Below, piece by piece: positions 28,979-46,399 of a stretch of DNA of 64,000 bases (position 1 is its first letter; each line of letters begins with the position of its first letter). A program made the translations under genes and the position numbers. The notes beneath the pieces were generated by a model. That model ran no database searches, had not been told where the DNA came from, and saw nothing but the letters and a program-made list of their open reading frames with translations. Source of the DNA: an uncultured Lachnospiraceae bacterium (GTDB taxonomy: Bacteria; Bacillota; Clostridia; Lachnospirales; Lachnospiraceae); the NCBI GenBank assembly GCA_947576945.1, contig CANPTH010000010.1, positions 1 to 64,000 on the forward strand. Direction: 5' to 3'.

Positions 28979-30157
28979 ATGGCAGAACAGAAACGAGATT
29001 ACTATGAGGTGCTCGGCATAGAGAAAAATGCCGACGACGCGGCGATCAAAAAAGCATACAGAGTTCTGGCTAAGAAATATCATCCGGATATGAATCCCGG
29101 CGATGCGGAGGCGGAGAAGAAATTCAAAGAGGCTTCCGAGGCCTATGCGGTCTTGAGTGACCCTGAGAAGAGACGGCAGTATGACCAATATGGTCATGCT
29201 GCTTTCGATGGTGCAGGCGGACCCGGCGGTTTCGGCGGTTTTGACTTCAACAGCGCAGACTTTTCGGATATTTTCGGTGATATTTTCGGCGATATCTTTG
29301 GCGGCGGACGCCGCGGCGGCAGGAGCAACGGTCCCATGAAGGGGGCGAATATCCGTTCCAGCGTGCGGATCACCTTTGAAGAAGCGGTATTCGGCGTGGA
29401 TAAGGAGATTGAGCTGACGCTGAAAGATGAGTGTACAGCCTGCCACGGAACCGGTGCGAAGCCGGGAACCAGCCCGGAGACTTGTTCCAAGTGCGGCGGC
29501 AAAGGCCAGGTAGTATTTACCCAGCAGTCCTTCTTCGGTACGGTCAGGAACGTGCAGACCTGTCCCGATTGTCACGGAACCGGTAAAGTCATTAAGGATA
29601 AGTGCCCGGACTGCCGCGGCACAGGTTATATTGCCAACAGGAAGAAGATTCAGGTATCGATCCCTGCCGGAATCGATAACGGACAGTGTGTCCGCATCCG
29701 CGATAAAGGGGAGCCGGGAACAAACGGCGGCCCGCGGGGAGATTTATTGGTAGAAGTAGTAGTGGGCAGACATCCCATCTTCCAGCGGCAGGATGAGAAC
29801 ATATATTCTACCGTGCCTATGTCCTTCGCTGTCGCGGCGCTGGGCGGTGAGATCGTTATCGATACGGTGGACGGCAAGGTGATCTATGATGTGAAGGCAG
29901 GAACCCAGACTGACACGAAGGTGCGCCTGAAAGGTAAGGGTGTTCCTTCCCTGCGCAACAGGGATATCCGGGGCGACCACTATGTAACGCTGGTGGTGCA
30001 GGTGCCGGATAAACTGTCCCATGAGGCGAAGGATCTGTTGAAGAAATTTGATGAAGAGACAGGGGATTCCCTCAATGCAGCGAAGAACGTTACCTCTAAG
30101 AAAGCCGAGGAGGCGCCTGCTGGTAAGGGCAGAGGGAAGAAGAAACTCTGGAAATAA
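28979..30157 (+). CDS. dnaJ: Chaperone DnaJ (type I Hsp40)
   Basis: A 392-residue partner that stimulates DnaK ATPase. J-domain with YHPDMNPGD (HPD triad), Gly/Phe-rich region with repeated [11 protein letters not shown], four CxxCxGxG-type zinc repeats ([32 protein letters not shown]) and the C-terminal client-binding domain, ending in a Lys-rich tail. Its ATG is four bases after the dnaK stop, so translation is probably coupled. A terminator follows. Confidence 0.98.
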
Positions 30158-30214
30158 ATGTTTCAGATGGAAGATTATCTCACTGTCTGAACTGTTATAA
30201 TACGATACAGGCCG

Positions 30215-30249
30215 AAAGCACACTTTTCTGCGGGAAAGCGTGCTTTTGT
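30215..30249 (+). terminator. Terminator of the heat-shock operon
   Basis: AAAGCACACTTTTC pairs with GGAAAGCGTGCTTT through one G-U and wobble pairs around a TGCG loop, then TTGTT. Confidence 0.75.
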
Positions 30250-30369
30250 TATTGTCTGGCAGAGGTGTAATGCGTTGTAGTTTTCTGCACGGATCTGTGG
30301 TACAATGCAGATGTATACTCTCAGTGAAATCTATTGAAGCAATGCTATATTTATGATGGAGGAAAAGGG

Positions 30370-33300
30370 TTGAAAATAAGGAATCTGAGCAGAAGCATCG
30401 CGGCCTTTGTACTATCCGCGGCATTAATAATGGAACCGGCTGCCTGTATACCGGCAGTCCGTGCGGAAGAAGCACAGGAAGCGGAGCAGGATAAACAGGA
30501 GGGCGCTGTTGATCCGGCGGTTGAAAACGACGATATATCCGTAGAAAATCCGGAAAATACAGGGACAGAAGACGGGAACGCAAACAGCGGGGAGACGGAA
30601 ACTGAAGGAGTGGAGAACGGAAACGACAGTGAGAGCGCGGAAGATGAAAGTGATGATGAGGCAGATGACACATCAGACGGGGAGGCCGAAACCGACGATG
30701 CGGAGGAGGATCCGACAGAAGAAATAGAGAATGGGAACCTTGAAGAAGGGGAGCAGAACGACGATTTGGAGGAGGAAGCAGGGGACGGGACTGCACTGGA
30801 GAAAGATGAGGAAGAACCGGGAGATTTCTCGGATATGCCCGATGAGTACAGGCTGACTTCGTATCAGCAGGAGCTGAAGGCAGAGCTGTCAGCGGATTTA
30901 GGACGTCTGGAAGAAAGTGATGAAGGGGTGACTTATGCCGCTGGGCGGGTTTACACCTTCGCACAGAGCCAGGAAGAGGCCGAATTGATTGCCAGGGCTT
31001 ATCATGCGGAGATCGAGGATTTCAGCATGGGTGTTCTGACATTGGAACTTGGCGGGGACAGGACGGTCAGGGAAGCGGTTGAAGCGGCGGCATCCATGGA
31101 CAACAGTCTGCCGGCCGTGTGGCCGGATTATCGCCGTGAATTATATGAGGAGATATTTCCGGGAACCGGGGATTCCTTTCAGACGGATGGAAGAGCAGAG
31201 CTGGAAGTGACAGAGGAAGAATATGATCTGGATGAGGAAGAGATTGGGCTGCAGGCGGAAAGAGATATCTCTGCACAGGAAGCATATGGGCAGGCATTAA
31301 ATGAGTTGTACGGTTTTTCGGATCCATACCTGGATCCGGAAAGTGACCGCTATCAATGGTTCCATACCGCCATCGGCTCACCGTACGCATGGGAAGCCGG
31401 TTATACAGGACAATCGGTTACGGTAGGAGTAATTGATACCGGGGTGAGTCCGAACCCGGATCTGAATGATAATCTGACAGGCGGATATAATTTCTGTGAT
31501 GGGACGGAAGACACGGAGGACCGCTACCAGCACGGAACGCATGTGGCAGGAACGATTGCGGCGCTGGCGAATGGCGATCAGGGAGTTGGCGTCGCGCCCG
31601 GTGCAAAGATTTACAATGCAAAAGTATTTGGAGATGATGCGGGCAAAAGCGGTTATGATTCCACGATCATGAAAGCCATCCTTTATCTGATCAATGAGGA
31701 GGATAATTCCACGCAGAGGGCTGATTCCAAAGCGCCTAGAGTCGATATCATCAATATGAGCCTGGGAGGCTCCGGCAATACGATCGGTTTCCAGGCTGTG
31801 CTTGATAAGGCCAGGGAAAAGGGCGTTATTGTGTTTGCATCGACAGGTAACGACGGCGCTTCCACAATGATGTATCCTGCGTCCTATGAGCATGTTATTG
31901 CGGTGGCTGCAACGGACACCAACGGTGAAAGGGCATATTTTTCCAATTATGGGTTCAAGACAGATCTGGCGGCGCCCGGAGTGGATATATGGGCCACAAA
32001 TATAGATGGAGACGGAAATGCGGTCTACGAATCCCGGCAGGGCACTTCCATGGCGTGTCCTGTGGCGGCAGGGACGGCGGCAGTTATCCTGTCGGGACAG
32101 GCTGATCTGCCGTCGCTTAGCGGTAAGTCAGGAGCAGGCCGGGTGGATGCCCTGGAAGCTGTTATGCGGGGAAATGCCGTCGGCGCCGGTGAGGGTATGG
32201 GCGATGGCATAACCAACCTGGCGCAGGTATTTCATCTGACCACTGCCGGTATGAAACCGAATGCGCCCGATATAGATATTTCTGACAATTCTGATCAGAA
32301 GGGACAATCAGTGGAGGTGAGAATTACAGCGCAGGCGGGCATGCGGCTGTGCTACACGACGAACGGCAGAAATCCTGTCTATAAAAACGAGGAGGCAGGC
32401 GCGTATACAACGCTGACGGACAGCAATACGGTATCTTTTGTCATGGACGGGTCTCAGGCTGTGAAAGGGACAGTGAAGGCTTTGGCCATCAGTGAAGACG
32501 GGGTGGTCAGTGCGGTCAGGTCAAAGAGTTATAGTCTGTCGCCTTATGTAAAGGCGATAACAGTAACCGGCCCGGCCAAGGTAGAGAGAGGCCGAAGCAT
32601 TCAGCTTACTGCAGCAGTGACACCGGAGTATGCGGCCAACAAAAAGGTGACATGGGATCTGTCAGATTCGTTGGGAAAGCCGGTGGATACTAAGAAGATC
32701 AGGATTGATGGGAAAGGAAAGATTACGGTTGCGGGCACGGCCGATTTGGGCAGTTACACGGTAATTGTACAGGCCGGGGACGGCGGTAAGGCCGAGACGC
32801 GGTACGGAATCCAGGTGATTCAGAAAGGGACTGCAGCCACAAGGATTTCTTTTGATAAAAATACAACGAAAGAGCTGTGGATCACGAAAGAAGTTCCGGC
32901 TCCGACAATGAGTTTGGCGGATGGCCTGACTGTTATGGAGAAAGACGAGTCGGGTAACGAAATGACGTTCAGGGGAGACGAGCTGGGAGACCGTGTGATA
33001 TGGACGAGCAGCAAACCGGCTATAGCTGAGGTGGATTCCAAAGGCGTTGTAACTGCAAAAAGCGCAGGAACGGTCAGTATTACGGCCAGATCCAATGACA
33101 GCGGCAATAAGAAGACGAGTATCAGGATCAGGGTAAAGCAGGGGGTTACAGGAATCACGATCACTACGGCCAGGGGGAAGACTGATCCGGCATTATTTAC
33201 GGTGGCGGCAGGCAGAAGCATAACGCTTAAGAGTTCTGTCAGTCCGGCCAGACCGGCTGATAAAAAAGTGGAATGGAGTATCAGCCCGTCATCGCCCGGG

Positions 33301-34650
33301 GTGACGATTCACAGAACCAGCGGTAAGATTTCGGTTAAACCGGGAACAGAGTCAGGTATCTATACAGTGACTGCGAAGGCTCTTGACGGGAAAGGAGCGG
33401 CGGCGCAGCAGGAAATCAGGGTGTTCGGCGGCGCAGTCGGGAAGATCAGCCTGGATACATCTAAAGTTACGCTGTATACGAAGAAAGTCGATGATGTGAA
33501 AACGGATACGCAGGTGGTAACGGCCACGATCACCGGCGCTGATGGCAGAACGGATTTTGATCCCAATGCCTACACTGTCACGAGCAGCAATGAAGCCGTT
33601 GTCAGAGCGGCCTCTGTAACAGACGGTAGCGGCAAAGTGCAGATTACGCTTACTTCGGCGGGCAGTAAGTACGGCAGGGCTAAAATAACGATCACTTCTA
33701 CGGATGGAAGCAATAAGAAGGCGGTCTGCAATGTGGTGGTCAGCGGAAGCATCAAAAGTATGGAGATACAGGATACAGGCGGCAAAAAGGTAAGTAAACT
33801 GCAACTGTTCAGAGCCGTTGGTTCCAGTGCGCCGGAGTCTGCGGGCCTTAAGGTGGTGATCAAAGGGTCAGAAGGCTTCAATCCTGCAGCCTGTGATGTG
33901 AGCAGCAGTAATCCCGCACTGGTTAAAGTGTCACTGAATAAGCTGACAAATGAAATTCTGATAAGCGCCAGTGAGCGATCCACAGGTAAAGCAACAGTTA
34001 CATTGAGAGCCACAGACGGAAGCGGTAAGAAAGCATCCTGCAGTGTGACGGTCAGCAATCCGATATCCAGAATCAATATCGCGCCGAAGGCAGGTGCATC
34101 CGGATATGTTGTGTCGGGTAAAAGTGTGCAGCTGACGGCGGTACTTGAGACAGAATATGGCAAAGTGTCCGATCGGAAAGTAAGCTGGGAACTCTCCAAT
34201 AAGGCAGCAGGCATGGGCGTTACCATCAATTCTTCAGGAAAAGTAACTGTGCCCACAGGTTTGGAAGGGAAAACAGAAGATTTCACGGTTACTGCCACGG
34301 CCAGGGATGGAAGCGGTGTTAAAGCATCTTACACGATACGATTGAGGCCGCCAGCCACAAAGTTTGAGATCACATCCCAACTGCCGGCTAACGGGAAATA
34401 TGAGGTATATCATTTGTATACGATAAAGTTTACCTCTGACTGTGCTGCGCCTGTGATGTGTACATCTTCTTCACCGGAAACGGCTGCGCCTTCGATTGTG
34501 TATACACAGTACGATCCGAATACGAAGACTGGCGGAACGGGCAGGATTACTTTTATGGCAACAGGGGAGGGAGATGTTACATTTACCATCAAAGCGCTGG
34601 ATACATCAGACAAAACTCAAGAGGTAAAATGTACATTTCGAAAAAAATGA
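30370..34650 (+). CDS. Secreted subtilisin-like protease 1 (S8) with Ig-like stalk
   Basis: 1426 residues from TTG 30370 behind GGAGG. Order: signal peptide (cleavage near VRA-EE), acidic Glu/Asp/Asn-rich stretch to about 150, a conserved MPDEYRLTSYQ box, propeptide-like domain (about 190-260, FAQSQEEAELIARAY), S8 catalytic domain with Asp356 (VIDTG), His388 (HGTHVAG) and Ser560 (GTSMACP), a chitobiase-C-terminal-like domain (YTTNGRNPVY), then about six Big2-type Ig-like domains. The triad is complete, so it should be active. No LPXTG or other anchor is visible. The next subtilase starts 30 bp later, indicating an operon. Target unknown. Confidence 0.9.
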   Translation: MKIRNLSRSIAAFVLSAALIMEPAACIPAVRAEEAQEAEQDKQEGAVDPAVENDDISVENPENTGTEDGNANSGETETEGVENGNDSESAEDESDDEADDTSDGEAETDDAEEDPTEEIENGNLEEGEQNDDLEEEAGDGTALEKDEEEPGDFSDMPDEYRLTSYQQELKAELSADLGRLEESDEGVTYAAGRVYTFAQSQEEAELIARAYHAEIEDFSMGVLTLELGGDRTVREAVEAAASMDNSLPAVWPDYRRELYEEIFPGTGDSFQTDGRAELEVTEEEYDLDEEEIGLQAERDISAQEAYGQALNELYGFSDPYLDPESDRYQWFHTAIGSPYAWEAGYTGQSVTVGVIDTGVSPNPDLNDNLTGGYNFCDGTEDTEDRYQHGTHVAGTIAALANGDQGVGVAPGAKIYNAKVFGDDAGKSGYDSTIMKAILYLINEEDNSTQRADSKAPRVDIINMSLGGSGNTIGFQAVLDKAREKGVIVFASTGNDGASTMMYPASYEHVIAVAATDTNGERAYFSNYGFKTDLAAPGVDIWATNIDGDGNAVYESRQGTSMACPVAAGTAAVILSGQADLPSLSGKSGAGRVDALEAVMRGNAVGAGEGMGDGITNLAQVFHLTTAGMKPNAPDIDISDNSDQKGQSVEVRITAQAGMRLCYTTNGRNPVYKNEEAGAYTTLTDSNTVSFVMDGSQAVKGTVKALAISEDGVVSAVRSKSYSLSPYVKAITVTGPAKVERGRSIQLTAAVTPEYAANKKVTWDLSDSLGKPVDTKKIRIDGKGKITVAGTADLGSYTVIVQAGDGGKAETRYGIQVIQKGTAATRISFDKNTTKELWITKEVPAPTMSLADGLTVMEKDESGNEMTFRGDELGDRVIWTSSKPAIAEVDSKGVVTAKSAGTVSITARSNDSGNKKTSIRIRVKQGVTGITITTARGKTDPALFTVAAGRSITLKSSVSPARPADKKVEWSISPSSPGVTIHRTSGKISVKPGTESGIYTVTAKALDGKGAAAQQEIRVFGGAVGKISLDTSKVTLYTKKVDDVKTDTQVVTATITGADGRTDFDPNAYTVTSSNEAVVRAASVTDGSGKVQITLTSAGSKYGRAKITITSTDGSNKKAVCNVVVSGSIKSMEIQDTGGKKVSKLQLFRAVGSSAPESAGLKVVIKGSEGFNPAACDVSSSNPALVKVSLNKLTNEILISASERSTGKATVTLRATDGSGKKASCSVTVSNPISRINIAPKAGASGYVVSGKSVQLTAVLETEYGKVSDRKVSWELSNKAAGMGVTINSSGKVTVPTGLEGKTEDFTVTATARDGSGVKASYTIRLRPPATKFEITSQLPANGKYEVYHLYTIKFTSDCAAPVMCTSSSPETAAPSIVYTQYDPNTKTGGTGRITFMATGEGDVTFTIKALDTSDKTQEVKCTFRKK

Positions 34651-34680
34651 GAGGGGGAGCGCTTCGGCATGGAGGAAAGG

Positions 34681-37600
34681 ATGAAGAAATATCGTAGGGG
34701 AAGTAGAAGATGGGCGGCATTGCTGCTTGCGGCAATGCTGGCCGCAGAGCCGGTGGGGGTACAGAGTACGGTTTACGCTGTTGAAAGCGGCACGGAAAAC
34801 ATGATAATCCCGGAAGCGGATGCCGACAGTGCGGGGCAGGCAGAAGAAAGCGAAACCGCAGATGCGGAGAATGCCGAAGAGAAGGCGGGCGAAGAGACAA
34901 ATTCGGAAATTCCGGACGCAGACAATATAGAAGAAGACGGAGATGGTAATACAGAGACGGACGATTCGGGAAATCAGGAGAGCGAAGAAACGGAAGAGAA
35001 TCCGGGGACAGAGTCCGGAGAAACGGAAGGCGGGGAAGAAGGGCCGGATACCGAAGAAGGTAGCGGCTCGGAAAATACAGACGGAGAAGAAAAGAATGAA
35101 AGTGGTTCTGAGGAACCGGATACTGATGAGAAAGAACCGGAGGGTGAAGATCCGGCGGATACTGAGGGCTCAGAGGAACCGGAGGACTCCGAGGAGACAG
35201 AAGACACTGAGAATGCTGAGGATGAGGAAGCAGAGGGAGATGAGAAGTCTTTAGCGGAGACAGAGGAGTCCAAAGAGAAGATTCTTGACAGTTTTACGGA
35301 AATGTCTTCCGATTATCGTCTTACTTCGGAACAGATCGAAGGCAAACGGGATCTGGCAGTCCATTTGGATGAGATCAGCGAGTACCAGGAAGGTATTGAT
35401 TATGTGAAGGGACAGGTCATTACCTTTGCGCAGACACAGGAAGAGGCGGAATTGATCGCAGAAGCATACAATGCCCGGATCGCGCAGTTTGAATACGGCA
35501 TTCTGACACTGCAGCTGCAGGAGGAGGATACGGTTAATAAAGCGATGCGCGCGGCCGCTGCCGAGGAAATCAATCTGCCTGCTGTCTGGCCCAACTATTA
35601 CCGTTATGCATTTGGTGAAATAACTGAGGAACAGGGCGTCGCTTCGGGTGATTCGTCAGAAGATATGCAGGATCATTCGGAAGAGGGTATATCCGGGACA
35701 GATGAGGATGCAGAGGATTACATAGAAATTGAGACATGGGAGTATGAGACGGAGGAGGACGGAGAAGCTGGCAGGATCGACAACTCTGAAGAATTGTCCG
35801 GGCCGGGGGACGACTATTTGGAGGCGATGGGATACAATGATCCCTATTTACAATCCACGAGTTATTCTTATCAGTATCATCACACTGTCATAGGATCGGC
35901 TTATGCCTGGGCAGCCGGCAGCACCGGCAAGGGGATCAAGGTTGCTGTTCTGGATACCGGTGTCAAGAATCAGACGGAAGTATCGGTTACGGATATTTAT
36001 AAGAAGGGAAACAACGACAGTCATGGACATGGAACTCATGTGGCAGGTATTATCGGCGCAAGGGCGAATGGGCTCATGGGTGTTGGCGTAGCGCCCGATG
36101 TGACGCTCTACAGCGGCTGTGTGCTTCCCAATGGATATGGAACGGACGCCGATATTATGGGCGGTTTCAGAGCGGCAAAGAATAGAAATGTGGATATCAT
36201 CAATATGAGTCTGGGAGGAATCGGTTATAATGGATCTTTTCAGACAGTGATCAATGAGGCTTACAAACAGGGGATAGCTGTTTTTGTGGCAGCAGGCAAT
36301 GACGGCGGCACGAATTATCAGTATCCGGCGTGCTATGACAACGTGATCAGCGTAGCCGCCACGAATGAGAGTAATGGAAGGGCATATTTTTCCAATTACG
36401 GTAATAAGGTTGATTTGAGTGCGCCAGGGGTTGATATATGGTCCACAGGCAGGAATGATTCTGGTTATGTGAGAAAGAGCGGCACCTCGATGGCCTGTCC
36501 CGTGGCGGCAGGTGAGGCGGCAGTTATTTTGTCCGGCAACGCAGAAATACGGAATAAGAAAGGCAAGGCAAGGGTGGATGCCCTGGAAAGCCTGATGAAG
36601 TCCAGTGCAGTCAAAGCAGGCTCCGGCATGGGAGCTGGTATTACGATGCTGCCCAAGGCGCTGCAACTGAATACGGCAGCTGCAAAACCTGCCGCACCTG
36701 ATATCCGGCTGATACCTGACAGCGCTTCTGCGGCGCAGAGAGTCAGGGTGGTTATAGATGCGCCGGGCAATGTAAAGGTCTATTATACAACCGACGGCCA
36801 GAATCCTGCCTTTAGAAACGGACTGCCGGGAGATGGTTCCATACAGTATTCGCAGCAATTCACGGTCAGTGATCAGGCAAAAGCTACGATTAAGGCAATA
36901 GCGGTCAATGAAAGCGGTGTGTCAAGCGCGGTCAGATCCGTAACGTATACGTTGAAACCATATGTCAGCAGTATTAACATATCCGGTGTTCAGCAGATCG
37001 CTCAGGGTAAAAGCGTACAGCTGAAAGCAGAAGTGCTGCCGGCATATGCGGCAAACAAGAAAGTGATCTGGGAATTGTATACTGCAGATGGCAGAAAAAT
37101 TGACAGTAAGACAGATGCAGAGCTGGCCCGCGAAGTTGGCGTGAGCATATCGTCCGGCGGTAAAGTGACAGCATCCGGTAAGGCGAAGACTGGCAGTTAT
37201 GACGTAACAGCAACATCCAGGGATGACAGAGGCAGAAGCAGTACCTACAGGATTACAGTGATCGATACGGTGAACATTGAGAGTGTTAAGCTTACGACGT
37301 CGAAGTTGTCGCTCACGCTGCCGGATGATGCGGCTTATAATTTAGGGGCATGTCTGGAAGGGAAATGCAAGGACGGAACGACGCCGTCTGTGTCAGATTT
37401 CAAATGGAACAGCAGCAACGAAACGGTCGCCAAAGTAAGTGAGTCCGGAATCGTAACGGCGCTCCGGCCGGGAAAAGCGACGATCACAGCGCTGGCCAAT
37501 GATTCCAGCGGCAGGAAAGCAGCCTGCACTGTGACGGTATTACAGCAGGTCACAGAGATAACCATATCGGATTATAATAAGATTGCGGTGGGTAAGAGCC

Positions 37601-38709
37601 AGACGTATAAAGCGACGGCGCTTCCCGCTGCCGCCAGCAACAGGAAAGTAACATGGTCATTACTGCGCGGATCTGAGGAAGTGACTGCACAGCGGGCGAG
37701 AGAACTCGGTGTGAGTATTAACGCTTCCAGCGGTAAGGTAACAGCAACTTCGAAGGCGGCGCCGGGTTCCTATACAGTCAGGGCTGTTGCACGGGACGGA
37801 AGCGGAATCAGCGCGGACAGACAGATTAAGATTGTTACAGGTTCGATCACCGGGATTGCTTTTACGAAGAAGGAGTACAATAAAGTGACTCTTTTCAGGA
37901 AAAAGCAGACTTACAGCACACCGGTTTCAACAGAGATCTATGCCGAGATAAAAGGGACGGATGATGCGGATCTGGATGCCTATGAGGTGACAAACAGCAA
38001 TCCGGGGATTGCGGAGGTGACTTCGACGCAAAAAGACGGAAACCTTGCGTTGACGATCAGGGCAACCGGGACGGCAGCAGGTAAGAGCGTGATTACAATC
38101 AAGGCTACGGACGGCTCCAACAAGAAACAGAGTTGTACAGTCACGGTCAAAAACCCTGTCTCCGGAATTAGAATAGCGCCTTCCGGCGGAAGTACACAGT
38201 ATTTAGCCAAAGGAAAAAAACTGCAGATGAAAGCCGTCGTAGAGACAGAGAACGGTGCGGTATCCAGCAAAGGCGTAAAATGGGAGATCTATGGCGTCAA
38301 AGGGGTGAGCATATCATCGAGCGGCAGAATTAAGGCCGGCAGGAATGCGACAACCGGCTATTGCAGCGTTTATGCTACCGCGAAAGACGGCAGCGGCGTG
38401 ATGGCTTCATATTCCATATATGTCGTAACTCCGACAACGTGGATTAAACTGTATAACAATGGATATCTGTCTACAAAGAAAAAAATCCGGATCAATCGAG
38501 GACGGGTGTATTCTATGAATGTTGATTCGGACAGTATGCTTAACAGCTACTCTGTCTCATCTTCAAACCCGGCAGTGGTATCCGGTTCCTTTAATAATCC
38601 TGACAGGGTCCTGAAGATCATGGGAAACAAGAAAGGATCTGCCACGATTACCGTGAAGGCGCTGGATGGCAGCGGGAAGAAGGTAAAATACCGGTTTACG
38701 GTGAGGTAG
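34681..38709 (+). CDS. Secreted subtilisin-like protease 2 (S8) with Ig-like stalk
   Basis: 1342 residues from ATG 34681 (site GGAGGAAAGG). Same plan as the preceding gene: signal peptide, acidic Glu/Asp/Thr/Gly-rich stretch to about 195, box MSSDYRLTSEQ, propeptide-like domain (from Phe249, FAQTQEEAELIAEAY), catalytic domain with Asp425, His450 (HGHGTHVAG) and Ser603 (GTSMACP), chitobiase-C-terminal-like domain and Big2 repeats. A further acidic insert of about 70 residues separates propeptide and protease. It lies in the same operon as protease 1 and is a diverged duplicate rather than a recent copy. Confidence 0.9.
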   Translation: MKKYRRGSRRWAALLLAAMLAAEPVGVQSTVYAVESGTENMIIPEADADSAGQAEESETADAENAEEKAGEETNSEIPDADNIEEDGDGNTETDDSGNQESEETEENPGTESGETEGGEEGPDTEEGSGSENTDGEEKNESGSEEPDTDEKEPEGEDPADTEGSEEPEDSEETEDTENAEDEEAEGDEKSLAETEESKEKILDSFTEMSSDYRLTSEQIEGKRDLAVHLDEISEYQEGIDYVKGQVITFAQTQEEAELIAEAYNARIAQFEYGILTLQLQEEDTVNKAMRAAAAEEINLPAVWPNYYRYAFGEITEEQGVASGDSSEDMQDHSEEGISGTDEDAEDYIEIETWEYETEEDGEAGRIDNSEELSGPGDDYLEAMGYNDPYLQSTSYSYQYHHTVIGSAYAWAAGSTGKGIKVAVLDTGVKNQTEVSVTDIYKKGNNDSHGHGTHVAGIIGARANGLMGVGVAPDVTLYSGCVLPNGYGTDADIMGGFRAAKNRNVDIINMSLGGIGYNGSFQTVINEAYKQGIAVFVAAGNDGGTNYQYPACYDNVISVAATNESNGRAYFSNYGNKVDLSAPGVDIWSTGRNDSGYVRKSGTSMACPVAAGEAAVILSGNAEIRNKKGKARVDALESLMKSSAVKAGSGMGAGITMLPKALQLNTAAAKPAAPDIRLIPDSASAAQRVRVVIDAPGNVKVYYTTDGQNPAFRNGLPGDGSIQYSQQFTVSDQAKATIKAIAVNESGVSSAVRSVTYTLKPYVSSINISGVQQIAQGKSVQLKAEVLPAYAANKKVIWELYTADGRKIDSKTDAELAREVGVSISSGGKVTASGKAKTGSYDVTATSRDDRGRSSTYRITVIDTVNIESVKLTTSKLSLTLPDDAAYNLGACLEGKCKDGTTPSVSDFKWNSSNETVAKVSESGIVTALRPGKATITALANDSSGRKAACTVTVLQQVTEITISDYNKIAVGKSQTYKATALPAAASNRKVTWSLLRGSEEVTAQRARELGVSINASSGKVTATSKAAPGSYTVRAVARDGSGISADRQIKIVTGSITGIAFTKKEYNKVTLFRKKQTYSTPVSTEIYAEIKGTDDADLDAYEVTNSNPGIAEVTSTQKDGNLALTIRATGTAAGKSVITIKATDGSNKKQSCTVTVKNPVSGIRIAPSGGSTQYLAKGKKLQMKAVVETENGAVSSKGVKWEIYGVKGVSISSSGRIKAGRNATTGYCSVYATAKDGSGVMASYSIYVVTPTTWIKLYNNGYLSTKKKIRINRGRVYSMNVDSDSMLNSYSVSSSNPAVVSGSFNNPDRVLKIMGNKKGSATITVKALDGSGKKVKYRFTVR

Positions 38710-38866
38710 TTTTTATGGTGATGAAGTCGTGCGGCGCAGCGTCAGCAATGGAGAAAGATGATCTGCCGGCATAGATATATATTAAAGTGGAAAGATACTT
38801 CAGTACATGGAAAGTTATTCCATTTTGATTAGTTTTTGCAATTTAATATTCATTTTAAAAAAAGTA

Positions 38867-38875
38867 TGGTATAAT
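38867..38875 (+). promoter_or_regulatory. Extended -10 promoter of the propeptide-like gene
   Basis: TGGTATAAT gives a perfect TATAAT (38870-38875) with the TGn extension, and no good -35. It lies about 60 bp before the ATG at 38936, so the small protein and protease 3 can be transcribed independently of proteases 1 and 2. Confidence 0.55.
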
Positions 38876-38935
38876 ATTATGTGCATTTAGGCGGGTGTGA
38901 TTGCTGTAAGGATACCTGCCTGGAAAGGTTGGGAA

Positions 38936-39343
38936 ATGAATAAGAAAGTGATGGTTGTTGGTATTGTGGTCATTATCGCTGCCGCAGGTTTTATGGCAGG
39001 ATGGTATGTGTTGTCCTGTTATATGGGAATCGGTCCGGTTTTTCCATTTCTACCTGAGAAAGAAGTCAGTATGGAGAATCTGCAGGAAGAAAAAACAGAT
39101 CTGGTTGCAGAAGAAAAAGCAGATCTGGTTGCAGAAGAACAACTGATGGCATTGGTAGAGACAGAAGAGGAGGCAGAGAGCATCGCGGAGCAGTATGGGA
39201 TTGAGCTTACGTCTTTTTCTGAGGGAGTAGCAGTCTATAAGACGGAAGAGAATCCGGCGGATGTGATTGCCAGAGGGCAGGATAACGGGTATCCGCAATT
39301 GTTCATGAATCTGCAGCGCAGGACAATGTTGAATACCAATTAA
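38936..39343 (+). CDS. Membrane-anchored protein with a stand-alone subtilase-propeptide-like domain
   Basis: 135 residues from ATG 38936 (site AAAGGTTGGG). A basic N-terminus (MNKK) and a membrane helix at about 5-27 predict an external C-terminal part. After a Glu-rich linker with a tandem TDLVAEEK/ADLVAEEQ duplication, residues 69-128 align with the propeptide regions of the three neighbouring proteases: EEAESIAEQY here versus EEAELIARAY, EEAELIAEAY and EEAELIAAAY, followed by the F-x-x-GVAVY strand and a final P-L-x-N. No protease domain follows. Protease 3 begins 63 bp downstream, so the two are probably cotranscribed. A role as inhibitor, chaperone or protection factor is inferred. Confidence 0.75.
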   Translation: MNKKVMVVGIVVIIAAAGFMAGWYVLSCYMGIGPVFPFLPEKEVSMENLQEEKTDLVAEEKADLVAEEQLMALVETEEEAESIAEQYGIELTSFSEGVAVYKTEENPADVIARGQDNGYPQLFMNLQRRTMLNTN

Positions 39344-39406
39344 CCGTTTCACATATAGGGGTTCCAGAATAAGGGGAAGGACGCCCAGAATAAAAGGAGG
39401 AAGGAC

Positions 39407-42400
39407 ATGAGAGCAAGGAAGAAATTCAGCAAACGATTATTGGCATTATTATTGTCAGCAGTAATGATCGTAGAACCTGCGGGAAGTTCAATAATCGTTC
39501 ATGCAACAGAGGCAGATGCTGAACTGACAGAAGCAGAGGGAACTGAAGGTGCAGGTGGACAGACGGATGCGGGAACACCTGAAAGTGCAGAGGAAGAAAA
39601 TAAGGACAGTACTTCTGAAGAGCAGGGAAATGGCGAAAGCAATCCTGAAGATCAGGGAAGTGAAGAAAGCGGAGAAAAGCCGTCCGACAATCAGCAGGAA
39701 GAAACCGAGAACCAGAATCCTGAGGATCAGGAAGGAACCGAGAACCAGAATCCCGAGGATCAGGAAGGAACCGAGAATCAGAATCCTGAGGATCAGGAAG
39801 GAACTGAGAACCAGAATCCGGATGACCAGATCACGGATGAGGAAGAGCCTGGAGAAGAAGGCGATGAGGCTGAGGATTCCGAAGAGGAAGACGAAGAAGC
39901 AGAGGACGAAGAGGAGAAGGAAGAGAATACTGATACAAAGGAAAGCTTTTCCATGCCTTCTGATTATGAGCTGACGTCCAGACAGAAGCAGATGAAAGCA
40001 GCGCTTGCAGCAAGCATGAGTGATTTTGATGATTCGGCAGAAGGCGTACAGTATGCAGAGAGAGAGGTATTTACTTTTGCCGACAGCCGTGAAGAGGCAG
40101 AACTGATAGCCGCGGCATATCATGCAGAGCTTATAGAGTATGATGAAGGAATTGCGGTTTTGAAGCTGCAGGCTGGGGCTGCTGTAGGGGAAGCGCTGCG
40201 TGCGGCGGCATCGGCTGACAACAATCTTCCGGCGGTATATGCGAATTATTACCGGTATATCCATGTGGAAGAACAGCAGAATGTTCCGGCGCTGGATATC
40301 ACAGAGGAAGAGTTTGATTTAGAAGGATATACCTTTGTGGATCCGGAGACAGAGGAACCTGGCATAGAGGCATATATGCAGGCAGTGGAAGCGCTTGGTG
40401 AGCCGAACATGGCTTATGACAGCAACTATTATCAGTGGCAGCATGTGAATGTCGGCTCCGTATATGCGTGGGATGCAGGCTATAAGGGAAGCGGCGTTAA
40501 AGTTGCCGTGTTGGACAGCGGCGTATCGGGTAATGCAGATGTGACACCGATCGTAAATATTAATAAGACCGATGAGGCAGACGCAAATGACGGTAATGGA
40601 CACGGGACGCATGTGGCAGGTATTATTGCGGCACAATTGAATGGTCAAGGGGGCGCAGGTATTGCTCCTGAGGCGCAGATTGTGAATGTCAGAGTACTGA
40701 ATAGCGCCGGAAGTGGAACGGATGCCTGGATTGCGCAGGGTGTACGGGCTGCAATAGCTGAAAAAGTAGATATCATCAATATGAGCCTGGGCGGTATTGG
40801 ATATTCTCCGGCAATGCAGGAAGTAGTGGACGAAGCATATAAGGCAGGCATTGCAGTTTTCGTATCGGCAGGTAATGACGGCGGTACTAATATGTGCTAT
40901 CCGGCAGCGTGTGACAATGTTATCTGTGTTGGAGCAACTGACAGTAATAATCAGAGAGCAAGCTTTTCGAATTACGGAGCCTGGGTTGATTTGAGCGCTC
41001 CGGGTGTGAGCATCTGGTCTACCGGTAATAATGGTGGTTTTGTGAATATGTCCGGTACCTCTCAGGCCTGCCCGGTAGCAGTAGGTGAAGCCGCAGTCAT
41101 TCTTTCTTCCGGCAAAGTATCCGGTACTGGTTCCGGCAGAGTAGACGAACTGGAAAATCTTATGAAGAGCAATGCTGTTTCGGTTGGCTCCGGTATGGGT
41201 AAGGGAATCACCAGCTTACCGAAGGTATTTAATCTCAGCACAGCAGTGACGAAGCCGGCAGCGCCGGAAATTGAAGTGAATGTCGCTGATGATAAGCAGA
41301 CCGTGTCTGTAACGATTAAGGCGCAGGCAGGAATGACGATTTACTATACAGATAATGGCAAGGCGCCGAGTTTTAAGAATGGCTCTGCTGGAGCTGGCAC
41401 AATTTGTGCGGAGACGAATCCGGTAATACTTCCTCCTTATGAAGGCCAGCAGAAGATCGTGATTTCCGCCATTGCAGTAAATGAGAGCGGCGTGCCCGGT
41501 AAAGTAACGAAAAAAACGATCGAGCTGAAGCCGTGGGTAACGGAACTTGAAATATCCGGTGTGTCCCAAATTGCCAGGAAGAAATCTGCGCAGTTGACAG
41601 CAGAGGTGGGACCGAGTTATGCGAAGGATAAGAGCCTTACCTGGAGCATTGACGGTAATCCTGCCGGCATTTCAGTAAATGCCAAGGGTAAAGTAACCGT
41701 AACAGCTTCTGCGAAAGCGGGAGATTATACGGTCAGAGTGGTGGCAAATGATCGAAAAGGACAGGAAGGGCAGGTTGAAGCTCTACATACAATAAAGGTT
41801 CTTGATTCCGAATACATTAAGTCTGCTAAGTTTGCAAAAACAAAGGATACGATCTCAATTGGCGGACAGCCGGAAACATATAATGTTCCGGAGAAGGGAC
41901 AGTTTACACCTGTAAAAAAACCGGAATATGTGGGAGAAGTATCAGCGGCTGATTTTGTTTGGAGCAGCAGCAACAAGGCGCTTGCGACTGTTGATAGATC
42001 ATCCGGTATTGTTACAGCGAAAGCGCCGGGAAATGTTAAGATTACTGCAACAGCGAATGACGGAAGCAATAAGAAGGCCGTATTTACGCTGACGATTAAG
42101 CAGTTGGCAACATCGATGACGATTACCGGTGATGATTATGTTGCGGCAGGTGCAAGCATTACTTTAAAAGCGGTAATAGGACCGGAGAAAGTCAGCAGTA
42201 AGAAAGTAGAATGGACTTCAAACAGACAGGATGTTTCCGTGAAGAACGGTGTAGTAAAACCTGGCGCGGGTGCATCTGGAGAGTGTATTATTACTGCAAC
42301 TGCAGCGGACGGAAGCCAGGTGGCCGGTACAAAAACAATTACCATAAAGAGCGGTAAAATCAGCGGCATTAAATTTGATAAGCGCAGCATAAGTATTTTA

Positions 42401-43351
42401 AGACCGACTGATAATGCCAGGAGTAGTGAAGAGGTCGTTGCGACGATAACAGGAAATGGAGACTGTGCCTGGAATGCATATACCTGCACAAGCAGTAATC
42501 CTGGAATTGCTACAGCAGCGGTAACAGATGCAAGTAAAGATGGAACTGTGAAATTGGCTGTAACTGCTACGGGTAAGGCGGTAGGTAAGACTACGATTAC
42601 GTTGATGGCGACAGATGGCAGTAAGAAGAAAGCAACCTGTAATGTGACAGTGACCAATCCGGTTTCCAAGATCAACATTAATCCGGCAGCAGGCAGCAGC
42701 AACTATGTTGCCAAAGGGAAAACTCTGCAGTTAAAGGCAGCGCTTGAATCGGAATATGGTATTGTTGGCAACAAGAAGGTAATCTGGGAACTGTATACGG
42801 CGACTTTAAATGGAAATAGTTTAATAATGGGGGATAAAGTTACTTCTGCAAATGCAGGCGAAGTAAAAGTATCAATATCCTCAAGCGGAAAGATCAAAGC
42901 TGAAAAGGACGCCGCTGAACAATTCATGGTTGTGCAGGCTACAGCCGCGGATAATGGCGGAGCCAGGGCAAGGTATGCAATAAGAGTGACAACGCCGGTG
43001 AAGAAGGTTGCGTTATATGGATATTTCAGTAGACCGAATGGTTTGCCGGCATATGAGGAATTAAATACCAAGTCGATTTATGTGTACGAACAGTTAACAG
43101 ATGGAGGAGCGTATACGCTTGATTTAATGTGTGACTTTGATCCGCAGACAGGGAAGTTCACGATGCCGGCAGGAGGCGTGATCGTTTCTTCATCAAATCC
43201 GAAGGTTATGTCTGCGACATTCGGTTATGATTCAGAAGGTTACCCGGTAGTGCGGATATCGGCAGACAACCCTGGTAATGCTACTATTACGGTTAAGGCA
43301 ATGGATGGTGGCAATGCACAGGTGAAGTTAAAGTTTAAAGTGGAAAAATAG
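39407..43351 (+). CDS. Secreted subtilisin-like protease 3 (S8) with Ig-like stalk
   Basis: 1314 residues from ATG 39407 behind GGAGGAAGG. Signal peptide (cleavage near VHA-TE), acidic Glu/Gln/Asn-rich stretch with NQNPEDQEGTE repeats to about 180, box MPSDYELTSRQ, propeptide-like domain (from Phe224, FADSREEAELIAAAY), catalytic domain with Asp370 (VLDSG), His399 (HGTHVAG) and Ser552 (GTSQACP), chitobiase-C-terminal-like domain (YYTDNGKAPSF) and Big2 repeats. The triad is complete. It follows the propeptide-like membrane protein and ends at a strong terminator. No anchor motif is seen. Confidence 0.9.
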   Translation: MRARKKFSKRLLALLLSAVMIVEPAGSSIIVHATEADAELTEAEGTEGAGGQTDAGTPESAEEENKDSTSEEQGNGESNPEDQGSEESGEKPSDNQQEETENQNPEDQEGTENQNPEDQEGTENQNPEDQEGTENQNPDDQITDEEEPGEEGDEAEDSEEEDEEAEDEEEKEENTDTKESFSMPSDYELTSRQKQMKAALAASMSDFDDSAEGVQYAEREVFTFADSREEAELIAAAYHAELIEYDEGIAVLKLQAGAAVGEALRAAASADNNLPAVYANYYRYIHVEEQQNVPALDITEEEFDLEGYTFVDPETEEPGIEAYMQAVEALGEPNMAYDSNYYQWQHVNVGSVYAWDAGYKGSGVKVAVLDSGVSGNADVTPIVNINKTDEADANDGNGHGTHVAGIIAAQLNGQGGAGIAPEAQIVNVRVLNSAGSGTDAWIAQGVRAAIAEKVDIINMSLGGIGYSPAMQEVVDEAYKAGIAVFVSAGNDGGTNMCYPAACDNVICVGATDSNNQRASFSNYGAWVDLSAPGVSIWSTGNNGGFVNMSGTSQACPVAVGEAAVILSSGKVSGTGSGRVDELENLMKSNAVSVGSGMGKGITSLPKVFNLSTAVTKPAAPEIEVNVADDKQTVSVTIKAQAGMTIYYTDNGKAPSFKNGSAGAGTICAETNPVILPPYEGQQKIVISAIAVNESGVPGKVTKKTIELKPWVTELEISGVSQIARKKSAQLTAEVGPSYAKDKSLTWSIDGNPAGISVNAKGKVTVTASAKAGDYTVRVVANDRKGQEGQVEALHTIKVLDSEYIKSAKFAKTKDTISIGGQPETYNVPEKGQFTPVKKPEYVGEVSAADFVWSSSNKALATVDRSSGIVTAKAPGNVKITATANDGSNKKAVFTLTIKQLATSMTITGDDYVAAGASITLKAVIGPEKVSSKKVEWTSNRQDVSVKNGVVKPGAGASGECIITATAADGSQVAGTKTITIKSGKISGIKFDKRSISILRPTDNARSSEEVVATITGNGDCAWNAYTCTSSNPGIATAAVTDASKDGTVKLAVTATGKAVGKTTITLMATDGSKKKATCNVTVTNPVSKININPAAGSSNYVAKGKTLQLKAALESEYGIVGNKKVIWELYTATLNGNSLIMGDKVTSANAGEVKVSISSSGKIKAEKDAAEQFMVVQATAADNGGARARYAIRVTTPVKKVALYGYFSRPNGLPAYEELNTKSIYVYEQLTDGGAYTLDLMCDFDPQTGKFTMPAGGVIVSSSNPKVMSATFGYDSEGYPVVRISADNPGNATITVKAMDGGNAQVKLKFKVEK
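39704..39823 (+). repeat. 33-bp tandem repeats encoding an acidic linker
   Basis: Units start at 39704, 39737, 39770 and 39803 (the last partial) and encode TENQNPEDQEG. They differ by single synonymous bases, indicating slippage-type expansion. Confidence 0.85.
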
Positions 43352-43401
43352 AGAGCGGCGAATAGGATTTAATAGTAACTGAATAATGTAGTTATGATAG
43401 A

Positions 43402-43446
43402 GGCAGCATTTGACCAGTGAATTGTGGATAAAATGCTGCCTTTTAT
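43402..43446 (+). terminator. Terminator after protease 3
   Basis: GGCAGCATTT pairs with AAATGCTGCC over 10 bp, followed by TTTTAT. Confidence 0.75.
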
Positions 43447-43467
43447 CTGACAGGGGGTGCGGTTTAG

Positions 43468-43617
43468 ATGATTGCTGCAATAAAGGACAAGCGTATTCCG
43501 GATCTGGACAGAATTGTAAATGAAGTGATAAGGTTGAAAAATCACACTGATGTGCTGATTTTTCAACTGCGAGTTTGTGCCGGAGCCACAAACTCGAAAT
43601 TGCAGAGCCAAATTTGA
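43468..43617 (+). CDS. Small hypothetical protein, possibly interrupted
   Basis: A 49-residue frame with a GGGGGTG site 9 bp upstream of ATG 43468. The first about 33 residues look like an amphipathic helical peptide (KDKRIPDLDRIVNEVIRLKNHTDVLIF); the last about 15 are encoded by the inverted repeats that follow. Together with the next small frame it may be one gene broken by that repeat. No function recognised. Confidence 0.3.
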   Translation: MIAAIKDKRIPDLDRIVNEVIRLKNHTDVLIFQLRVCAGATNSKLQSQI

Positions 43618-43628
43618 AATTTGGCTCG
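43570..43628. repeat. Pair of inverted repeats (REP-like)
   Basis: CGAGTTTGTG/CACAAACTCG (43570-43596) and GAGCCAAATTT/AAATTTGGCTC (43605-43627) form two adjacent hairpins, both without T-runs. The arrangement resembles a short palindromic mobile repeat; there is no second copy in this window. Confidence 0.5.
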
Positions 43629-43667
43629 CAGCCTCCGCAAAAAAACTGCTTCGGCATGGAGGTACAG

Positions 43668-43820
43668 ATGGAAGAATGGGAGGCTGCAGCGCAGCTTTTG
43701 CGGCTGTTAAAGAATGCTGGAAGAAATGAAGAGGCGGACCGTGCTGTTTTTGATGAAGCGTATCGGAAGCAGCTGTATCAGGAGTTTGGAGCTGCCGTTG
43801 CGGAAGTACATGCTGAATGA
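43668..43820 (+). CDS. Small hypothetical protein
   Basis: A 50-residue acidic helical frame with GGAGG 6 bp before ATG 43668. The pattern LLKNAGRNEEADRAVFDEAYRKQLYQEFG resembles small Lachnospiraceae hypothetical proteins ending in YRxxLYxEF. It may be the second half of the frame at 43468. Function unknown. Confidence 0.4.
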   Translation: MEEWEAAAQLLRLLKNAGRNEEADRAVFDEAYRKQLYQEFGAAVAEVHAE

Positions 43821-43861
43821 TATCTAATTCTTATAATTTCCTTAGTTTTGCAAAATCTGAG

Positions 43862-43890
43862 TGTACAGCTTTCCATTTTTCGGCTATAAT
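43862..43890 (+). promoter_or_regulatory. Promoter of the DUF3048 lipoprotein gene
   Basis: TGTACA (43862-43867) and a perfect TATAAT (43885-43890) are separated by 17 bp. Confidence 0.6.
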
Positions 43891-43989
43891 AAGAATGTTT
43901 TTTGACCGCATACTAATTAAGGATGTTTTGGTATGAGAAGATAAAGCAAAAGCATAACCGAAAAAGGGGAATGTGGAAAAGAGGTAAAG

Positions 43990-45228
43990 ATGTTACGGAG
44001 GAGAATTGTATTAGCGGGAATTACAGTATTATGCATGGCGGCAGGTCTGACAGGGTGCGGTAAAGATGAAGAACCGGTTCCTGTACCGGAGGTAGATGTT
44101 GTGGAAGAAGAGCCGGAACCGGAGATCGAGGAGGAGCCGGAAGAGGAAATACCTGAGATTACGACGGCATATCCCGTGATTGAGGAGCGGGTAAGTGAGA
44201 ATGGTAAGATTCAGAGTTATCTGACAGGAGAATGGACGGATGAGAAAATGGCAAACCGCAGGCCGATCGCGGTTATGATTCCCAACAATGCTCCGGCGCT
44301 TCCGCAATATGGCTTATCCAGAGCAGGTATTATCTATGAGGCGCCTGTAGAAGGACGCATCACCAGACTGATGGCGGTATTTGAGGATTTTGACGATCTG
44401 GACAGGATCGGGCCTGTGAGAAGCAGCCGTGATTATTATGTCTATGTCGCGATGGGATATGAAGCCATCTATTGTAACTGGGGGCTTGCCAGACCTTATG
44501 TTGAGGAATTGATCAACAGGCCGGAATATTATAATGTCAGCGAAGCGGTGGAAGGGATTCATAATCCTGCCAATGAAGCGTTCGGCAGAGTGAACCGGCC
44601 GGGATATGCCAAGGAGTTCACGGGATATGTTATCGTGGACGGTGTGTTCGAGGCAGTGGAAAGACTCGGGTATGACTGGAATTATGATGATAAATATGTA
44701 CCGCCGTTCCTGTTCGCAGCAGATGATGTGACGGCGGATTATGCGGAGAAGGAAGATGCCATTCTGGTATATCCGGGTGGTAAGTCGGGCAAAAATGCCG
44801 GAGGCTACGGAGCCTATCATCCATATTTTGAATATCATGAGGACGACCATCTGTACTATCGGTATCAGGATGGCAAGAAGCAGATCGACGAGTATAATAA
44901 CGAGCAGCTTGCCGTCAGCAATATTGTCTTCCAGTATTGTCATGGCGAAGTGCGGGATTCCCATGATTATCTTGCCTTCGGTGTGCACGGCGAAGGCGAT
45001 GCCATAGTCTTTACCAATGGCAAAGCCATTAAAGGGACATGGAAGCGTTACGACGGTGATTTTACTCCGGCAAAGTTCTATGATGAGAACGGGGAAGAGA
45101 TCATCTTTAATCAGGGTAAGACCTGGATTTGCAATATCTGGCAGGAATACGGGGAGTATGTAGAGTATGGTAAGGATGATACAAGCCTGACTACGCCGGA
45201 TATGCCGTCTGTGAAAGCAGCAGAATAA
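43990..45228 (+). CDS. DUF3048 (YerB-like) lipoprotein
   Basis: A 412-residue exported lipoprotein. Signal peptide ending in the lipobox LTGC (Cys about 23), a Glu/Pro-rich linker (about 28-58), then a two-part DUF3048 region: RRPIAVMIPNN, GPVRSSRDYYV, a central segment, and the C-terminal QKxxxNIVFQY-like part (AVSNIVFQYCH, GKTWICNIW). The biochemical role of this family is unknown; a cell-envelope role is likely from its location. ATG 43990 follows GAGGTAA. Promoter and terminator define a single gene. Confidence 0.9.
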   Translation: MLRRRIVLAGITVLCMAAGLTGCGKDEEPVPVPEVDVVEEEPEPEIEEEPEEEIPEITTAYPVIEERVSENGKIQSYLTGEWTDEKMANRRPIAVMIPNNAPALPQYGLSRAGIIYEAPVEGRITRLMAVFEDFDDLDRIGPVRSSRDYYVYVAMGYEAIYCNWGLARPYVEELINRPEYYNVSEAVEGIHNPANEAFGRVNRPGYAKEFTGYVIVDGVFEAVERLGYDWNYDDKYVPPFLFAADDVTADYAEKEDAILVYPGGKSGKNAGGYGAYHPYFEYHEDDHLYYRYQDGKKQIDEYNNEQLAVSNIVFQYCHGEVRDSHDYLAFGVHGEGDAIVFTNGKAIKGTWKRYDGDFTPAKFYDENGEEIIFNQGKTWICNIWQEYGEYVEYGKDDTSLTTPDMPSVKAAE

Positions 45229-45253
45229 CAGGATTGATGAAGAGCAAGATGAA

Positions 45254-45296
45254 GCAGCATCCGGCTGAGACAATATCGGTCTGGATGCTGTTTTTG
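45254..45296 (+). terminator. Terminator of the DUF3048 gene
   Basis: CAGCATCC pairs with GGATGCTG, extended by weaker inner pairs, followed by TTTTT. Confidence 0.75.
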
Positions 45297-45318
45297 GCGT
45301 CCTGCATTTATTTTCGAG

Positions 45319-45347
45319 TATACACCCTTTAGAGTTTCGGGTATAAT
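45319..45347 (+). promoter_or_regulatory. Promoter of the prmA gene
   Basis: TATACA and TATAAT with a 17-bp spacer. The -10 and start-site region (TATAATAAGAATG) is identical to that of the DUF3048 promoter. Confidence 0.5.
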
Positions 45348-45400
45348 AAGAATGCTGATCTGCATGGCACAGTATTGGAGAAGGAGGCAGGTGCATCAAT

Positions 45401-46399
45401 ATGAAATGGATGAAATTCAGAATTAAAACAGTTACAGAGGCGGAAGATATTATTATCAGCACCCTCTATGATATTGGTCTGGAAGGTGCGCAGATCGAGG
45501 ACAGGATTCCTCTGACGGCGTTGGAGAAGGAGCAGATGTTTGTAGATATTCTGCCGGAGGAGCCGGAGGATGACGGTATTGCGTATCTTAGCTTTTTTGT
45601 AGAAGAGAAAGATGACGGCAGTCTGGAAATAAACGGTATGCCTGCGGATAAGGATACCATCGTGAAGCAGATCAGGGAGGAGCTGGATGGGCTGCGCCTT
45701 TTTATGGAGATCGGAGAGGGATCGATCTCGGTATCAGAGACGGAGGATCTTGACTGGATCAACAACTGGAAGCAGTATTTCCATCAGTTCTACATAGATG
45801 ACCTGCTGGTAATCCCCTCCTGGGAGACGGTGAAGCCGGAAGATGCCGGCAGGAAAATACTGCATATTGATCCCGGCACGGCTTTTGGAACCGGGATGCA
45901 TGAGACAACACAGCTCTGCATCCGACAGATCAGGAAGTATCTGACTTCTGAGACAGAGATTCTCGATGTGGGTACGGGCAGCGGTATTCTGGCAATTCTG
46001 GCGTTGATGTACGGTGCGAAGCATGCCGTAGGCACGGATCTGGATCCCTGCGCTGTGGAGGCAGTGGCGCAGAATATGGAGTCCAATGGTATTGCAGAGG
46101 AATCTTTTAAAATGATGATCGGTAATATTATTACGGACAAGGATGTACAGGATCAGGTGGGCTATGAGTGTTATGATATTGTAGCAGCCAATATTCTGGC
46201 AGATGTTTTGGTGCCGCTTACGCCGGTCATCGTCCGGCATATGAAGAAGGGCGGTATTTATATTACATCGGGTATCATAGATGAGAAGGAACAGACAGTC
46301 AGAGAGGCTGTGGAAGCGGCAGGGCTGGAGATTGTAGAAGTCACTTACCAGGGAGAGTGGGTCTCGGTAACTGCCCGAAAGGCGGCTGATCCTGTTTAG
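45401..46399 (+). CDS. prmA: Ribosomal protein L11 methyltransferase
   Basis: A 332-residue SAM-dependent methyltransferase that modifies ribosomal protein L11. N-terminal substrate-binding domain, then the Rossmann domain with PGTAFGTGMHETTQLC, motif I ILDVGTGSGILAI and the catalytic NILADVL segment. ATG 45401 follows GAAGGAGGCAGG. Probably the first gene of a group with vanZ and rsmE; the order prmA-rsmE is common in Firmicutes. Confidence 0.95.
   Translation: MKWMKFRIKTVTEAEDIIISTLYDIGLEGAQIEDRIPLTALEKEQMFVDILPEEPEDDGIAYLSFFVEEKDDGSLEINGMPADKDTIVKQIREELDGLRLFMEIGEGSISVSETEDLDWINNWKQYFHQFYIDDLLVIPSWETVKPEDAGRKILHIDPGTAFGTGMHETTQLCIRQIRKYLTSETEILDVGTGSGILAILALMYGAKHAVGTDLDPCAVEAVAQNMESNGIAEESFKMMIGNIITDKDVQDQVGYECYDIVAANILADVLVPLTPVIVRHMKKGGIYITSGIIDEKEQTVREAVEAAGLEIVEVTYQGEWVSVTARKAADPV

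Follow-up and report, generated by a model that had tools for sequence, protein, structure and literature searches.

A stand-alone, membrane-tethered subtilase propeptide-like protein encoded beside S8 proteases in Lachnospiraceae

Analysis of the window (the whole stretch of 64,000 nucleotides from an uncultured Lachnospiraceae bacterium) located a group of four genes between a gene which we take to be dnaJ, from its protein sequence rather than from a family search (28979..30157), and a DUF3048 gene assigned by family match (43990-45228); the latter is followed by a gene that is presumably prmA (45401-46399), the right flank thus covering 43990..46399. All these genes are on the forward strand. 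The three large ones code for S8 subtilases in which Pfam also detects repeat domains, Big_2 among them: protease 1 (30334..34650, TTG start as listed; taken from 30376 on in the family scans) and protease 2 (34669..38709), each with its own propeptide according to Pfam and own-genome matches, and protease 3 (39407..43351), a secreted subtilase with its own propeptide and Big_2 repeats. Between proteases 2 and 3 lies an ORF of 135 residues with an ATG start (38936..39343), assigned as a stand-alone, membrane-tethered propeptide-like protein from its homology to the neighbouring propeptides and from purifying selection in its family. The distance of 63 bp from this ORF to protease 3, given in the initial annotation, was confirmed: the stop is at 39343 and the start at 39407.

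A sigma-70 scan of positions 38500-39500 gave matches at background level (2 found, 2.0 expected), and the same region contains one weak terminator-like site, which overlaps the end of the protease 2 gene. By eye only, an extended -10-like TGGTATAAT was spotted at 38867-38875. Elsewhere, the window codes for a 1626-residue protein (6196-11076) that combines a transglutaminase-like core with Big_2 and Listeria-Bacteroides repeats and whose gene includes a long tract of 18/36/72-bp repeats (6307-6668). A second protein, of 1798 residues (13988-19384), has a CAP domain together with Listeria-Bacteroides repeats. The window also carries a 238-bp tandem duplication (2173-2612; 91% matches over 1.8 copies) in DNA not covered by ORFs of at least 280 residues.

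The small protein begins with a short Lys-rich N-terminus and a membrane helix at residues 3-30 (38942..39025), seen both in the hydropathy profile and in the AlphaFold model, which supports the single N-terminal membrane helix claimed initially. This helix is probably a signal anchor with the domain outside, an orientation supported by the lipoprotein relatives described below. The sole cysteine of the protein, Cys28, is inside the helix, and the extracellular domain has none. The helix is followed by a juxtamembrane motif, GIGPVFPFL (residues 31-39; 39026..39052). In alignment A1, which holds 33 of the 36 genus proteins (L038:8992, L062 and L064 were left out), the GxGPxFPF pattern is strongly kept among TM-anchored relatives of the window's type, unlike the adjoining linker. 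Frames longer than 260 residues in the collected loci contained no match to GPxFPF, and the only other DNA match to it in the same genome was within a 30-codon frame, which is not a gene. The linker (39081..39139) carries a 24-bp in-frame tandem repeat (EEKTDLVA/EEKADLVA) and is predicted to be disordered, with pLDDT below 50 for residues 39-65. A folded domain comes next (39134..39310; pLDDT 92-96 for residues 71-120 and 74 for residues 121-130), and the chain ends in a substrate-like tail (residues 126-135; 39311..39340), assigned from tail statistics and from the alignment to the BPN' prosegment. Met131 is found in this tail at the position equivalent to P1, six residues past Asn125, in a part of the model of low confidence (pLDDT below 50 for residues 130-135).

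The initial annotation had aligned this domain with the propeptides of all three neighbouring proteases, and this relationship was confirmed. In a search of the 4.37-Mb genome at E<=10, the small protein matched, apart from itself, only the propeptide regions of the three neighbours, with E values of 2.0e-4, 0.025 and 0.19; the family profile raised these matches to 5.7e-11, 4.3e-8 and 5.1e-6, and the domains are therefore homologous, excluding a chance resemblance. The motif EEAExIAxxY is common to all four. Family-search rows that matched the N-terminal helix (L081-L088) were inspected and rejected as members.

Structure prediction agreed with the homology: the modelled domain has the subtilase-propeptide fold, and its best structural match was ORF2, the external chaperone of the Aeromonas sobria serine protease ASP (3wqb, 2mk4). 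The prodomains of PC1/3, BPN' and fervidolysin were also matched, with modest scores. The kinship to propeptides first proposed stands; its I9 label needs correction at the level of sequence: Inhibitor_I9 is absent from the Pfam families shown, and the sequence link is to the fervidolysin-type prodomain PF22148. The cut-off of this family was passed by five of the ten relatives scanned, and 4/33 members of A1 matched it at E<=1. The window protein itself gave no credible match in Pfam, and the PDB sequence search with the family profile gave nothing significant (best E 0.17).

The propeptide of protease 3 that is homologous to the stand-alone domain comprises residues 216-286 in the AlphaFold model (40052..40264), with His286 at +6 in its tail. 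Residues 190-600 of this protease were modelled with a pTM of 0.89 and matched pro-subtilisin E, the predicted docking of the propeptide being that of pro-subtilisin. The signal peptide and the propeptide of protease 3 are separated by an acidic linker, which 33-bp tandem repeats encode (39695-39819). In an alignment of 38 proteases, the Asp, His and Ser which we take to be catalytic and the Asn which we take to form the oxyanion hole are among the invariant columns; alignment A3 retained 36/38, two with ambiguous letters being left out. Most of the proteases directly downstream of a stand-alone gene look secreted and unanchored by their sequences, because 43 of the 44 have an N-terminal hydrophobic stretch (19-residue mean of at least 1.1), none exceeds 1.8 elsewhere in the chain and only one LPXTG-like string occurs among them.

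Two further subtilase genes were observed along the way. A 331-residue frame (G000:C1:54711-55499) represents a subtilisin-like gene without this propeptide, and a similar short match is found in 76/77 genomes of the genus (not in G500). In genome G023 a second S8 gene is split across overlapping reading frames (L043, 8160-11074).

Small ORFs of the family were present in many genomes of the window's genus among the 98 relatives searched. A large S8 protease occurs in 38 of the 77 genomes returned by a search of the genus, and 37 of these 38 also have a gene for the stand-alone domain; none of the 39 genomes without such a protease has one (p 3e-21). These counts of 37 and 38 were made by hand from the search tables, and G036, G040 and G502 were not counted as stand-alone, their matches being to the N-terminal helix or to a protease propeptide. 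The sole exception, G502, is a genome 64% complete whose protease runs off the contig end. The pair of protease and stand-alone gene is thus conserved in many related genomes, contrary to the refuting case named initially. At the level of the bacterial family, 20/397 genomes matched at E<=1e-3, in some cases solely within S8 proteins or via the membrane helix; one 376-residue frame (G461:C72) was left out of the collected loci. A scan of named genomes with the alignment yielded 31 loci, mostly in records named Lachnospiraceae, with two from Butyrivibrio (one of them, in Butyrivibrio sp. MC2021, carrying a pair), one labelled Erysipelotrichaceae and three without a family label; 21 of these repeated contigs already in the set and 10 were added. 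The same scan with the single window sequence gave no matches. The family looks concentrated in Lachnospiraceae, since an even sample of the phylum gave one match at E<=1e-5 in 398 genomes, that of the window's own genome.

The final set comprised 60 stand-alone ORFs, the window's included, or 58 after removal of two duplicates; L139, itself a truncated protease end, was dropped. All 58 distinct proteins adjoin an S8 ORF on the same strand (57 within 250 bp, one at 535 bp), with overlaps of 1-4 bp in five cases. The S8 gene is directly downstream in 44/58 and only upstream in the other 14. For 56 of the 58, an S8 protein with a detectable propeptide match is encoded within 700 bp; the match includes the conserved Asn/Asp/Glu in 51 and is partial in 5. 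An N-terminal hydrophobic segment was detected by script in 57/58 of the stand-alone proteins, 21 of them with a lipobox; L134 has none, a few segments, such as those of L129 and L136, could be cleavable signal peptides, judging from their sequences, and the script overlooked the juxtamembrane motif of L043 (SMGPAFPF).

The dnaJ/DUF3048 junction (30158-43989 in the window) is the site of a variable cassette in the genus, which contains one to several S8 genes with differing stand-alone types, or nothing. Both flanks were found in 20 of the 63 loci examined, one flank in 11 and neither, within the available stretch, in 32; in these 32 the cassette is located elsewhere or the stretch is too short. 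Among seven genomes lacking the cassette, dnaJ is directly followed by DUF3048 in four (L159, L161, L163 and L164), other small ORFs occupy the site in L160 and two were not cleanly resolved.

In a tree of 122 rows and 67 columns, 50 stand-alone domains formed one group (98/93), while the other eight, identified by subtraction, were placed among the protease propeptides. The stand-alone label requires two changes on this tree, and the starred branches force two. The simplest reading is that the domain became stand-alone twice, on a tree whose deep forks are weak, whose bootstrap had not settled and in which some long branches meet. Among close pairs of stand-alone genes pN was lower than pS in 54/54, with a median ratio of 0.35, excluding a pseudogene fragment for the family.

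The divergence of the stand-alone proteins followed that of the catalytic domain of the downstream protease (r 0.61, 41 pairs). For the 22 pairs with dnaJ at hand, the correlation with the downstream protease was 0.81, and still 0.81 when dnaJ was controlled for, against 0.14 with dnaJ itself. Nine arrays have a protease on either side of the stand-alone gene; there the divergence of the stand-alone protein correlated with that of the downstream protease (r 0.89, permutation p 5e-4) but not with that of the upstream one (r -0.05). At the level of sequence divergence, these results identify the stand-alone protein and the downstream protease as a unit, making protease 3 the likely cognate partner in the window, without proving contact, because shared inheritance as one cassette would yield the same signal as co-adaptation.

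The C-terminal tails were counted in 56 of the 58 stand-alone proteins, those in which the conserved Asn/Asp is present (two have no aligned Asn/Asp), and in 67 of 74 protease propeptides. Past the conserved residue, the protease propeptides have a hydrophobic or aromatic residue (FYWHLIMV) at +6 in 45/67 and an acidic residue at +8 in 55/67. The stand-alone proteins have a hydrophobic or aromatic residue at +6 in 33/55, compared with 7/43 at +7; for representatives of clusters at 70% identity the counts were 19/28 and 2/21 (Fisher p 4e-5). A different residue is found at +6 in 22/55; in the window's type this is often Asp, Asn or Glu. The chain ends exactly at +6 in 12/56 and between +6 and +9 in 35/56. 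The published PfSUB1 propeptide shows the same spacing of six residues, from its capping Asp211 to Asp217 at the C-terminus, and BPN' caps with Asp71 (PMC6993865). The BPN' prosegment is 77 residues long, and its alignment to our model ended where its residue 77 meets residue 131 of the model. The stand-alone proteins thus retain the C-terminal tail, +6 being the last position of the published propeptides.

The best explanation of these findings, to which we give a probability of roughly 0.6, is that the small protein is a tethered, cognate trans-inhibitor that protects the surface of its producer and possibly also aids folding. Homology, predicted fold and anchor, linkage, co-occurrence, selection, co-divergence with the downstream protease and conserved tail geometry support it; binding, inhibition and self-protection we infer. 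The extracellular domain, predicted to share its fold with the propeptide of the secreted S8 protease whose gene follows directly, would dock on the catalytic domain of that protease as its own propeptide does, laying the C-terminal tail into the active-site cleft with the P1-like residue six past the capping Asn. Fixed in the membrane, it would restrain active protease, whether just exported or returning, at the cell surface, while the released protease would act at a distance, the two forming a protease-immunity pair; it may also assist the folding of the nascent protease at the export site. The anchored inhibitor or protector proposed in the initial annotation was thus supported in part, as regards propeptide fold and conserved pairing, its inhibitory activity being presumed.

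The protein could instead be a tethered folding chaperone, templating the nascent protease in trans at the export site with inhibition as an incidental effect. ASP-ORF2, the source of the best structural match, is likewise a propeptide-like protein on its own, whose gene neighbours that of a bacterial subtilase; according to PMC5638518, ORF2 is required for active ASP, its C-terminus lies at the ASP catalytic site and it inhibits ASP with an IC50 of 84.3 nM. A membrane location would also suit action at export. However, ASP, called propeptide-deficient in the title of a reference cited there, needs ORF2 to mature, whereas the proteins studied here, although all beside a subtilase as an external chaperone is, are membrane-tethered and neighbour proteases that keep a propeptide, protease 3 among them. 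A second foldase looks redundant given the propeptide matches close to 56/58 members, 51 of them with the conserved residue, and we consider this reading unlikely.

Less probable still is a licensing or docking factor, in which the tethered domain would displace the cleaved propeptide, capture the enzyme at the surface and switch it on. Mammalian SPRING, a small type-II membrane protein of similar topology, competes with the prodomain of the subtilase S1P and activates the enzyme by displacing it (PMC12419022), and the tails without a large hydrophobic residue at +6 could give weak inhibitors. The stand-alone proteins have nevertheless kept the propeptide fold and a tail expected to block the active site, hydrophobic or aromatic at +6 in the majority, and the Cys-rich C-terminal domain of SPRING has no counterpart in the window protein, which shares the anchor helix but has its only cysteine within it. 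The protein might also be a membrane sensor or substrate whose cleavage reports protease activity, as its anchor, short cytoplasmic end and cleavage-site-like tail would allow; this is very improbable, the 12 proteins ending exactly at the putative P1 leaving nothing to cleave there and no cytoplasmic signalling domain being visible. Finally, a functionless, decaying fragment of a duplicated protease gene would fit the second stand-alone group, whose place among protease propeptides means that the domain did arise by loss or duplication, but 58 distinct intact ORFs with anchors, co-occurrence and pN below pS in every pair leave it almost no probability for the family as a whole.

The module had at first not been recognised as a known one; this holds only in part, since close functional precedents exist in ASP-ORF2, SpeB-Spi and Plasmodium SUB1-ProM, while a tether beside proteases retaining their propeptide was not found described. 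Plasmodium SUB1-ProM, an inhibitor that resembles a propeptide but stands alone, is encoded in a locus next to subtilase genes and has a capping Asn and a C-terminal tail; unlike the present family it is eukaryotic and likely lumenal in the parasitophorous vacuole, its tail is one residue shorter than that of the cis propeptide, and the available part of the source describes no tether (PMC6993865). POIA1, the yeast peptidase B inhibitor and Arabidopsis subtilisin propeptide-like inhibitor 1 are also free subtilase inhibitors of propeptide fold, but these named stand-alone I9 examples are eukaryotic, and the same portion of text mentions neither an anchor nor an operon arrangement for them (PMC6993865). 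In Streptococcus pyogenes, Spi is a propeptide-analogue inhibitor encoded beside SpeB and thought to protect the producer, although SpeB is a cysteine protease of family C10 and Spi is thought to act in the cytoplasm; the Bacteroides pairs Bfp-Bfi and Btp-Bti combine a protease with an adjacent, co-transcribed inhibitor-like gene, some products being predicted lipoproteins for which membrane protection was proposed, but the proteases are again C10 and the partners are staphostatin-like, without propeptide resemblance (PMC2873492, PMC3462683). The open-access literature searched contained no description of this family, of a subtilase propeptide tethered to the membrane in Lachnospiraceae, or of such a protein beside proteases retaining their propeptide. 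The novelty lies in the tethering to the membrane next to proteases with a propeptide of their own, and in the repeated origin.

Returning to the tethered inhibitor, a wider and more tentative proposal, which we hold at somewhat less than even odds, is that Gram-positive gut bacteria possess a convergent protease-immunity system. In this view, secreted subtilases of large size, often in a swappable cassette (dnaJ/DUF3048), would be neutralised at the surface of the producer by membrane-tethered prodomains, freed more than once and fixed by a signal anchor or a lipid; producers would be spared, and neighbours and host proteins would not.

To our knowledge, the question of how a bacterium without an outer membrane spares its own surface from secreted subtilases has rarely been addressed, and a conserved, cognate, tethered prodomain would be a directly testable answer to it. 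The family may also serve as an annotation marker for small hypothetical proteins and as a natural source of selective subtilase inhibitors, and its repeated origin would show a cis-acting folding domain turning into a trans-acting regulator.
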